From: an uncultured Bacilli bacterium
GTDB taxonomy: Bacteria; Bacillota_I; Bacilli_A; RF39; UBA660
Direction of reading: 5' to 3'
Length of the DNA stretch: 37,391 nucleotides
Assembly (NCBI GenBank): GCA_944363915.1
Contig: CALVVR010000015.1
Coordinates: 1-37,391, forward strand
Below, piece by piece: positions 3-25,862 of the stretch (the first letter of the stretch is position 1; every line of letters starts with the position of its first letter). A program made the position numbers and the translations under genes. A model generated the notes under the pieces. It had not been told where the DNA came from. It did no database searches and saw only the letters and a list, made by a program, of their open reading frames with translations.

Positions 3-416
3 AAACAAATTTCTACAATTATCAAAGATCTTAATCCACCAACTCTATCTATTCCTGGAATTGGTGTAATTTCTTGTGCTTCAATCATTTCAGAATTTGG
101 AGATGTTTCTAGATTTTCTAATGCTGCAAAGATGTTATCTTTTGCTGGTTTAGAACCTGGCATTATTGAATCAGGTACAATGTCTTCAAAAGGTAAAATG
201 GTTAAGCATGGTTCTGGATATTTAAGGTATTCACTTATGAATGTCGCCTTAACAGTTATTAGATATAACAATACTTTTTATGACTATTACTACAAGAAAA
301 TATCTGAAGGCAAATGTCATAGAGTTGCTTTATCTCATGTTTGTAAAAAACTTATAAGAGTTATTTACATTCTTGAAACTAAAAATATCCAATTTAATTC
401 GTCTTTATTGAAATAA
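3..416 (+). CDS. IS110-family transposase, C-terminal part (cut by window edge)
   Basis: The reading frame is open from base 3, so the annotated ATG at 132 is internal and the N-terminal half lies outside the window. The protein carries the Transposase_20 pattern typical of IS110 enzymes: a helix-hairpin-helix-like PGIGVISCASIISEFGD, then FAGLEPG, then KHGSGYLRYSL and a KKLIRVIY tail. IS110 enzymes are RuvC-like (DEDD) recombinases guided by a structured RNA from the non-coding end of the element; the DEDD half is not visible here, only the C-terminal catalytic-serine half. The gene ends with TAA at 414-416 and is followed by a terminator-like hairpin. The subgroup (IS110 or IS1111) cannot be told from this fragment. 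Confidence 0.85.
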   Translation, partial: KQISTIIKDLNPPTLSIPGIGVISCASIISEFGDVSRFSNAAKMLSFAGLEPGIIESGTMSSKGKMVKHGSGYLRYSLMNVALTVIRYNNTFYDYYYKKISEGKCHRVALSHVCKKLIRVIYILETKNIQFNSSLLK

Positions 417-742: not shown

Positions 743-2662
<1,920 letters not shown>

Positions 2663-2687: not shown

Positions 2688-2733
2688 CAAAAAAGGTGTC
2701 AAAAGTATTAAGTGCTTAATACTAATGACACCT
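2688..2733 (-). terminator. Attenuator hairpin in the recombinase leader
   Basis: On the minus strand AGGTGTCA, AGTATTAAG, a two-base loop, CTTAATACT, TGACACCT form a stem of 17 perfect pairs with one TT/TT internal bulge, followed by a T-run. It stands between a strong promoter and the recombinase ATG, and its 5' arm overlaps the last codons and stop of a leader peptide. This is the layout of ribosome-mediated transcription attenuation. Confidence 0.8.
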
Positions 2734-2772
2734 CTTTAAGTATAAATTATTATAAAATATACCTTTCTTCAT
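2722..2772 (-). CDS. Leader peptide (16 aa) of the recombinase attenuator
   Basis: The peptide is MKKGIFYNNLYLKRCH, stop TAG. It has a very strong ribosome site (AAGGGGG, 8 bases before ATG) about 43 bases after the -10 box. Its codons for RCH and its stop lie inside the 5' arm of the terminator hairpin, so a ribosome slowed near the end of the peptide would stop the terminator from forming and let transcription reach the recombinase. Leader peptides of this design are known upstream of antibiotic-resistance and translation-stress genes in Firmicutes. I do not recognise this exact peptide. Confidence 0.65.
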   Translation of the reverse strand: MKKGIFYNNLYLKRCH

Positions 2773-2814
2773 CTATTTAACCCCCTTAAATAGACACGAA
2801 ATCTCTTGATGAAT

Positions 2815-2842
2815 ATTCTATCACTTTTTAAAGAAATGTCAA
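2815..2842 (-). promoter_or_regulatory. Sigma-A-type promoter of leader and recombinase
   Basis: On the minus strand TTGACA (2837-2842), a 16-base spacer and TAGAAT (2815-2820) form a near-consensus vegetative promoter. A second TTGACA lies 11 bases upstream. Confidence 0.75.
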
Positions 2843-2853
2843 TTCTTGTCAAA

Positions 2854-3126
2854 TTAAATACCTTTCAAATAATCTTCTAACTCTGACAATTTAATTTTTT
2901 GAGAAAAATTTCTAATATAAATCTCATTAGAATAATTAAAAGCAAGAAATGTTATACCTTTAATGATTATCTTGTGTGGTTCTATATATGAAAGATTAGT
3001 TTTATCTATTTTATGAATACTGCCATTTACAAAAGTAGGAGTGGTATGTGAAAACTCACAAATAAACTCTAATCTTTGTTTTAAAGATTCTTCAATTGTA
3101 ATTTCTTGCTTAATAATGTTTATCAT
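2854..3126 (-). CDS. Small hypothetical protein (90 aa)
   Basis: The product is unknown. The start MINIIKQEI is chosen because AGAAAGGA lies 8 bases before it; longer starts either have the ribosome site touching the ATG or no site. The protein is predicted soluble and beta-rich, and ends with SELEDYLKGI. No known motif is visible. It lies between tRNA-Leu and the recombinase promoter, on the same strand as both, so it is probably part of the mobile DNA next to the tRNA rather than a core gene. Confidence 0.6.
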   Translation of the reverse strand: MINIIKQEITIEESLKQRLEFICEFSHTTPTFVNGSIHKIDKTNLSYIEPHKIIIKGITFLAFNYSNEIYIRNFSQKIKLSELEDYLKGI

Positions 3127-3195: not shown

Positions 3196-3234
3196 TTATA
3201 TATAAAGTTCGAATAGTTCGAACAGATTCGTCAC

Positions 3235-3319
3235 TGGTGCTTGTGGTGGGAATCGAACCCACATGACATAAGCCACACGATTTTGAGTCGTGCGCGTCTA
3301 CCAATTCCGCCACACAAGC
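3235..3319 (-). tRNA. tRNA-Leu (anticodon CAA)
   Basis: An 85-base class II tRNA with acceptor GCTTGTG/CACAAGC, D loop AATTGGTAGACGC, anticodon loop CTCAAAA within ACGA/TCGT, a long variable arm, T arm GTGGGTTCGATTCCCAC, discriminator A and an encoded CCA. It decodes TTG. A TATAAT box lies just upstream within a palindrome at about 3325-3351. The 'MAELVDAHDSK' ORF over this gene is an artefact of the tRNA. Confidence 0.95.
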
Positions 3320-24215: not shown

Positions 24216-25862
24216 TCATCTTTTTCCATAAGGATTTCTTACTAAATTTCTATTTTCATACGTAAAATTAATTTCTTGTATAACATCATATTTAAATATA
24301 ATGGTTATATTCCTATTTTCATCAATTATTATTTTATTTATTAACGAATTAATTAACTCCTTTTTAGTTTTCTTTAAATCTAATAGTTCTTTTATCTTTT
24401 TTGTATAATCTGGCAGTATATTTGCTTTATTCTTTATATTTTGTTTTTTTATTTTTTCTACTTCTATTATATTATTAATCTTTTTTAATTTAGTTTCTGA
24501 CTCTGTAGATAATTCTTTATATAATTCTGCTGAAATAATATTATTACATCTATCACTATATAAAGTGGATAACTTATTCATAATTTGTTCTTTTTCTTTT
24601 GAAAAATCATTTATCTTCTTATCTATATCTTCTGTTTCCTTATGAACGTTTTTTTGTACTTCTTTATTTAATTCTTCTATATCAAGATCTTTTATAAATT
24701 TTGATACTGAATTATTAAATTGTTCTAGTATTTGTTCTTCTAAATAGTCATATGGATAAAAGTGTGAACTACATCTTCCTCTCTTTGGATCTCTAGAATA
24801 CCTATTACAATTAATAGACCAATAATCAAGTTTCTTTCTATAATAAACAGATAGTCTATTACCACACTCTTTACAAAATATTTTTCCTTCTAAAATTCTT
24901 TTTGGTCTTTCTGTTTTTAAACCGTAATTTCTAGTTTTTCTTTTTCCTAAAGAATTAACATATTTAAAAGTTTCTTTATCAACTAAAGGTTCATGAGTAT
25001 CTTCAACTATTACCCATAAACTTTCATCTAATGTTATCTTCTTCTTTGATTTATAATTTACTTTTGTCTGAGTGTGTTGAACCATATCTCCAGTATAGAT
25101 TCTATTACTTAATATTTTCTTTACTGTCGATATATTCCAACTATCTCTATCAATCAATCTAGAGGAATAATTTGTTTTTTTATATCCTGCTGGTGTAGGT
25201 ACATTCATATCATTTAATCTTGTTGCTATTTCGGTTGGCCCTATTCCTTCTGTTCTCCACTTAAATATTTTTTTAACAATTGATGCAGTTTCTAGATTAG
25301 GTATTAAATGTCCTTTATCTAAAGGATCTCTAATATATCCATAACAAGGTTGACTCCCTATAAATTTACCATTTTTTCTTTTATCATTTAATACATTTCT
25401 TATCTTTATAGAATTTTGTTTACTATAATAATCATTACAAGCAATTATAAATGTTGAAGAATCATTACTAGCTTGATTTTTAAAACTATCATATGATTCA
25501 AGTATAGATATAAATCTTATGTTATTTTCAGGAAAAAATGTTTCAATATAATATCCTGTCATAACATGATCTCTACCAAACCTAGATAAATCTTTAACTA
25601 CTACACAATTTATCTTTTTTTGTTTTATATCCTCTAACATTTTTTGAAATCCCGGTCTATCAAAATTAGTTCCAGAATATCCATCATCTACATATTCTCC
25701 ACATAGATTAAAATTATTATTTTTAACATAACTTCTTAGTAATTCTTTTTGATTAATAACACTTTCACTATCAGATTCATATTTTTTATCTTTATCTTCT
25801 TGAGATAATCTTATATAGATTCCAACGTTGAAATCTATTTCAGTTAAGTAAGTATTATACAT
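24216..25862 (-). CDS. Large serine recombinase of the integrative element
   Basis: This is probably the integrase/excisionase that placed the element in the amidase gene. The catalytic domain (about 10-160) shows GIYIRLSQED with nucleophile Ser20, DDGYSGTNFDRPGF, VVKDLSRFGRDHV and the long helix. Then follow the Recombinase domain (about 170-300, KIRNVLNDKRKNGKFIG and YGYIRDP), a zinc ribbon with CKECGNRLS and a paired Cys further on (about 345-375), and a coiled coil (about 400-500). The 548 aa length is normal for the TnpX/transposon-type subgroup. The ribosome site GGAGG is 5 bases before ATG. It lies 1.1 kb from the left end. Confidence 0.93.
   Translation of the reverse strand: MYNTYLTEIDFNVGIYIRLSQEDKDKKYESDSESVINQKELLRSYVKNNNFNLCGEYVDDGYSGTNFDRPGFQKMLEDIKQKKINCVVVKDLSRFGRDHVMTGYYIETFFPENNIRFISILESYDSFKNQASNDSSTFIIACNDYYSKQNSIKIRNVLNDKRKNGKFIGSQPCYGYIRDPLDKGHLIPNLETASIVKKIFKWRTEGIGPTEIATRLNDMNVPTPAGYKKTNYSSRLIDRDSWNISTVKKILSNRIYTGDMVQHTQTKVNYKSKKKITLDESLWVIVEDTHEPLVDKETFKYVNSLGKRKTRNYGLKTERPKRILEGKIFCKECGNRLSVYYRKKLDYWSINCNRYSRDPKRGRCSSHFYPYDYLEEQILEQFNNSVSKFIKDLDIEELNKEVQKNVHKETEDIDKKINDFSKEKEQIMNKLSTLYSDRCNNIISAELYKELSTESETKLKKINNIIEVEKIKKQNIKNKANILPDYTKKIKELLDLKKTKKELINSLINKIIIDENRNITIIFKYDVIQEINFTYENRNLVRNPYGKR

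Follow-up and report, generated by a model that had tools for sequence, protein, structure and literature searches.

Directly upstream of a large serine recombinase gene in an uncultured Bacilli bacterium (contig CALVVR010000015.1; the whole 37,391-nucleotide stretch analysed is hereafter "the window"), a short leader ORF runs into the 5' arm of an intrinsic terminator, and this overlap is conserved among relatives of the recombinase while the encoded peptide drifts. We consider it likely that this leader works by ribosome-occupancy antitermination, like E. coli pyrBI, here acting on the recombinase unit of an integrative and mobilizable element (IME) that targets tRNA genes. A ribosome on the leader message would then probably decide whether the recombinase is made.

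Organization of the leader

The original prediction had described a promoter, a strong ribosome site, a 16-codon ORF and a terminator overlapping the ORF stop, in this order before the recombinase ATG, and all of these were found at 2688-2842 on the minus strand:

2815..2842, minus strand: promoter TTGACA-16 nt-TAGAAT with a TG before the -10 (11 of 12 consensus matches, extended -10)
2781..2787, minus strand: Shine-Dalgarno (SD) AAGGGGG of the leader ORF
2770..2796, minus strand: 11-bp hairpin around the leader start, whose loop holds the SD GGGGG, the AUG being on the 3' side of the stem
2722..2772, minus strand: leader ORF MKKGIFYNNLYLKRCH, 16 codons, ATG at 2772, stop TAG (2724-2722) inside the terminator
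2689..2737, minus strand: the attenuator, an intrinsic terminator made up of a hairpin (2737-2690, about -23 kcal/mol) and a T run
2680-2673, minus strand: recombinase ribosome-binding site AAGGAGAG, between the terminator and the recombinase ATG
743..2662, minus strand: large serine recombinase of 639 aa, the attenuated gene (Pfam Resolvase and Recombinase), ATG at 2662

In the window, the 5' arm of the terminator carries the final codons and the stop of the leader ORF. The whole leader folds better than 200 out of 200 shuffles (z -5.1), and a covariance model built for the attenuator matches the window at 2685-2749 with 61.9 bits; an Rfam search of the window returned two tRNAs and nothing else. 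The hairpin around the leader start had been missed in the original prediction. Across leaders generally, SD and start are unpaired at 0.39, vs. 0.49 when the flanks are shuffled, which supports this start hairpin weakly.

The element carrying the leader

Gene content and junctions place the recombinase in an IME, which combines a recombinase and a relaxase with a defined left attachment site. Two features lie upstream of the leader:

3235..3319, minus strand: tRNA-Leu(caa), the integration target (ARAGORN and Rfam), with the element starting right after its CCA
2854..3126, minus strand: ORF of ~90 aa, located after the tRNA junction and before the leader, with homologues in 157 of 172 loci

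The left junction, CCA followed by RYGACG..TCTGTTCGAAC, is common to all 21 occupied sites compared (the window, at 3234/3235, and 20 further loci), at which the tRNA species are Leu, Gly, Tyr and Thr, with a tmRNA beside the element in locus L018. Nearly every locus for which the upstream stretch was available has a tRNA gene (the tmRNA in L018) ~600 nt ahead of the recombinase, and the element and its upstream tRNA share the same orientation. Downstream of the recombinase, 58 of 80 loci carry a relaxase homologue (Mob_Pre/MobV). The element in the window is without a relaxase; the contig end is close by, beside an IS110-type remnant, i.e., a partial IS110-family transposase (Transposase_20, window 132-416, plus strand) at the contig edge and at the position expected for the relaxase. 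A search for the right end of the element by repeats of the tRNA end (at least 12 nt) found none, and no resistance cargo was seen in the window's element.

In gene content, this IME resembles Tn4451-type elements (TnpX, the MobV relaxase TnpZ, and TnpV), with which it shares a large serine recombinase and a Mob_Pre/MobV relaxase, and a TnpV homologue was found in locus L067. It differs in its target, however: Tn4451 has low target specificity (PMC5704250), whereas each insertion described above abuts precisely the encoded CCA of a tRNA gene, a fixed target on the sites compared.

The ~90-aa protein is well conserved (76% mean column identity among homologues). It has no Pfam match, and its AF2 model (pLDDT 93) has no PDB match at E <= 0.001; we treat it as a candidate recombination directionality factor or regulator. 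A second copy of this ORF lies ~3 kb behind the recombinase in locus L035 (9860-10144), which probably represents two tandem elements. The window itself encodes another, distant large serine recombinase (24216-25862, minus strand; Resolvase, Recombinase and Zn ribbon).

Conservation and specificity of the attenuator

The protein-based collection of relatives covered 193 genomes of the order as well as public genome contigs, the latter giving 80 loci, and further upstream pieces were added. The carriers are gut bacteria, mostly metagenome-assembled, and labelled as Bacilli, Tenericutes, Clostridia or Clostridium sp.; within this set, conservation of the attenuator extends over relatives in both gut Bacilli and Clostridia. 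Plasmid and phage collections contained no DNA match to the leader and only distant relatives of the recombinase (<60% identity, with only about half of the protein covered), and no relative was found in viral contigs.

A single-hairpin terminator within ~115 nt of the recombinase start was detected in 123 of 163 upstream regions, which reduced to 76 distinct leaders; among the remaining 40, several had been missed by the strict hairpin filter only, or have the attenuator further upstream at the operon head. The hairpin shows compensatory changes at 15 of its 17 pairs. An ORF with SD and ATG and with its stop inside the hairpin was present in 43 of the 76 distinct leaders, vs. a mean of 3.9 and a maximum of 10 when whole leaders upstream of the fixed hairpin were shuffled (400 shuffles), these leaders being thinned by similarity, yet related, and thus not independent trials. 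When SD and ATG were kept and only the pre-stem codons were shuffled, the mean was 10.0 out of 51 and the maximum 18. In 33 of the 43 ORF-bearing leaders, the ORF is preceded at a fixed distance by a strong promoter whose spacer is 16-18 nt long, vs. 1.6% of shuffled stretches.

The attenuator is also specific to the recombinase. Its covariance model matches 61 of 146 genomes of the order, and the best 30 matches in the order all lie directly before a recombinase copy, decayed copies included. In a sample of the phylum, no match outside the family was better than about 1e-4. Weak matches without a recombinase (E about 1e-4 or worse) were taken as ordinary terminators, and the idea of the same attenuator before unrelated genes was rejected. 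With ORF, hairpin and promoter co-conserved in many lineages and specific to the recombinase, the central part of the original prediction, a translation-coupled attenuator before a mobile-element recombinase, is well supported.

The frame is kept while the peptide drifts

Across the five leader groups that could be aligned, the pN/pS ratios of the pre-stem codons were 1.02, 0.82, 0.78, 0.73 and 1.04 (the fourth group being small and including one misassigned member). The alignments thus indicate a leader frame that stays open while its peptide sequence drifts. No shared stalling motif was found in the leader peptides outside the stem-encoded end, nor were repeated regulatory codons seen by inspection of 43 leader peptides, and both the frame in which the hairpin is traversed and the position of the stop within it vary among lineages. 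A comparison of related leaders for a conserved peptide and a conserved overlap had been proposed at the outset; it confirmed the overlap of ORF and hairpin (43 of 76 vs. 3.9) and not the peptide (pN/pS 0.73-1.04).

Taken together, the drifting peptide and the varied frames and stops argue against three roles for the peptide: specific ribosome stalling, amino-acid sensing, and function as a micropeptide. Amino-acid shortage, one of the two signals initially suggested, is unlikely, given the lack of regulatory codon repeats and a peptide that is free to drift (pN/pS about 1). That the leader encodes a functional micropeptide which the hairpin merely follows would fit with an ORF kept open in many lineages; given these pN/pS values, and unlike peptides and frames running through one hairpin, we find this barely credible.

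The ribosome as putative antiterminator

To see how a ribosome may act on these leaders, the 43 ORF-bearing leaders, window included, were folded with a masked ribosome walked along the ORF. For ribosome positions up to the middle of the ORF the terminator stays formed, and for those in the last 5-9 codons it is lost; in none of these leaders did an alternative structure (i.e., an antiterminator) replace the hairpin. As no competing structure was found and only a ribosome late in the ORF opens the terminator, the antiterminator is likely the ribosome itself.

We propose the following sequence of events. Transcription would start ~35 nt ahead of the leader ORF and, unless prevented, stop at the hairpin, so that little recombinase is made. 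If a ribosome stands at the last codons or the stop when RNA polymerase meets the T run, it would cover the 5' arm so that the hairpin cannot close, and transcription would run on into the recombinase gene. The quantity sensed would be a ribosome closely trailing the polymerase rather than the identity of a peptide, and candidate physiological signals include growth rate, nucleotide-dependent polymerase pausing, or a drug. U runs in the leaders are uninformative for UTP-sensitive pausing because of the AU-rich background. From these leaders we infer that termination takes place at the hairpin in the cell, that the leader is translated and that occupancy drives read-through; ribosome gating would likewise be expected to set the rates of excision and integration. 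More tentatively, and with the chances somewhat against it, occupancy of a peptide-indifferent leader ORF may be a direct recombinase switch in widespread gut IMEs, such that mobility would track translation-transcription coupling with no sensor protein and no resistance cargo.

A toy kinetic model with a single ribosome and assumed rates gives the highest read-through when ribosome and polymerase move in step. In this model, slower translation lowers read-through at polymerase rates of 50-80 nt/s, whereas with a slow or paused polymerase it increases read-through; the sign hinges on the polymerase rate, and a drug effect could therefore go in either direction. In E. coli, an intrinsic terminator is repressed by the ribosome when a stop codon lies no more than about 30 bp away, an effect lost once translation is uncoupled, and terminators of classical amino-acid attenuators lie >20 bp from the leader gene (PMC4824070). 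The leaders described here, with the terminator overlapping the ORF rather than spaced from it, follow the opposite design from these classical attenuators.

Alternative readings of the leader

In the reading first put forward for the window, slowed or stalled ribosomes on the leader raise read-through, so that ribosome-targeting antibiotics trigger the element. There are good precedents, since attenuation in Tn916 is relieved by tetracycline and other translation inhibitors with a boost to excision and transfer (PMC9632896), and vmlR and hflXr use small ORFs in a similar way (PMC9226507, PMC6310831); the toy model also gives the matching sign when the polymerase is slow or paused. However, the antiterminator and anti-antiterminator of vmlR and hflXr are absent from the leaders folded here, and hflXr has an RLR stalling motif, whereas no conserved motif accompanies the freely drifting peptides of the present leaders. 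Stalling would help only in the last third of the ORF, as a ribosome in the first half leaves the terminator intact. Discussion of stop-proximal terminators in E. coli has moreover pointed to the opposite sign, with slower translation predicted to raise termination there, and a cited in vitro experiment with fusidic acid agrees (PMC4824070). Slowed translation by such antibiotics is therefore a possible signal and one that we do not favor, and drug triggering of the element seems to us unlikely.

The terminator could instead be a passive insulator that shields the recombinase from read-through out of the tRNA gene and the small ORF, as proposed for terminators at the 5' ends of insertion sequences, with the leader ORF being incidental. 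The element immediately follows a co-oriented tRNA gene, which agrees with this, as do the lineages in which the terminator alone is kept, and transposases are often preceded by terminators that have been interpreted as insulators (PMC2965389). However, the recombinase has its own conserved promoter between the small ORF and the terminator, so that the terminator blocks this promoter too, and the overlap of ORF and hairpin is far above chance; an insulator is thus very improbable. Slightly less so, though still a long way from likely, is a trans-acting factor such as the conserved ~90-aa protein, which would act on termination or leader translation by binding either the nascent RNA or the leader hairpin. 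This protein adjoins the leader in 157 of 172 loci, the leader SD lies within a hairpin and some leaders have no ORF, all of which would suit such a factor. Against it, the ~90-aa protein is without known fold or family, and could equally be a recombination directionality factor. Ribosome occupancy thus remains the reading that we prefer.

Comparison with known systems

The pyrBI attenuator of E. coli has no known antiterminator. It is among the closest parallels to the leaders described here, with a terminator that lies within or overlaps the leader ORF and a hairpin that is prevented by a closely following ribosome. The differences are in setting and size: pyrBI is a biosynthetic operon that senses UTP via polymerase pausing and has a 135-bp leader gene, whereas the present ORFs are of 13-30 codons and precede a mobile-element recombinase. 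The location of the pyrBI terminator inside the leader gene is documented in PMC4824070.

In Firmicutes, control of resistance genes by a small ORF together with a conditional terminator is established (PMC9226507, PMC6310831). The Bacillus and Listeria examples, vmlR and hflXr, resemble the present leaders in having these two parts, and differ in switching between antiterminator and anti-antiterminator structures (PMC9226507, PMC6310831), of which none was found in the leaders folded here. The tet(M) leader of Tn916 is likewise a leader-peptide attenuator in a Firmicutes mobile element, tied to excision and transfer and relieved by translation inhibitors (PMC9632896, PMC9154091), although there (tet(M) being compared by description) the attenuator precedes a resistance gene, whereas here it directly precedes the recombinase. 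Mobile attenuators before transposases (Naville and Gautheret, 2010, PMC2965389) also place a terminator ahead of a mobility gene; in the portion of that work used here, these are described as insulators of insertion sequences, and no overlap with a leader ORF is mentioned.

No description of an ORF-terminator overlap before the recombinase of an integrative element was found in open-licence full-text literature, no leader attenuator for tnpX was found in the literature searched, and the portions of the IME review used here (PMC5704250) describe no such control. The class of mechanism is thus known, while its location on the recombinase of a tRNA-targeting IME and its peptide-free design appear to be new.

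To our knowledge, hardly anything is known about the control of serine-recombinase IMEs. If the gate works as proposed, a very common gut element would have its mobility coupled to the translation state of its host, and effects of growth changes and of ribosome-targeting drugs on this mobility would become directly testable. Ribosome-polymerase coupling in Firmicutes is debated, and dozens of natural leaders in which the frame is kept and the peptide is free would offer a clean system in which to study it.

Variants of the attenuator

About a third of the distinct leaders have the terminator without a recognisable ORF with SD and ATG. In a Clostridia group (loci L066-L108), the hairpin is kept, the SD is absent and ACG stands in place of ATG in several members; GAGTACTTTGA, complementary to the 5' arm of the hairpin, lies upstream. 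It is possible, judging from this complementarity, that an RNA antiterminator has replaced the leader ORF in this group, although folding of leaders with GAGTACTTTGA still prefers the terminator. In four other loci (L023, L113, L115 and L124), the terminator follows the promoter nearly directly and there is no leader ORF, and among close relatives of the window the leader ORF is shortened in L035 and has lost its start in L034. Loss of the ORF with retention of the hairpin, which had been named at the outset as the pattern that would speak against a translation-coupled leader, thus occurs in some sub-lineages and not in the majority. Across the leaders compared, the terminator is the more constant part, and the sub-lineages without an ORF appear as exceptions to translation gating.

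A further variant concerns the transcription unit itself. In loci L012, L059, L064 and L069, a gene is inserted before the recombinase, and the attenuator precedes the inserted gene and still heads the unit. This extra gene (L059, 4219-4992) encodes 250 aa of no known family, and its position between attenuator and recombinase places both genes under one attenuator.
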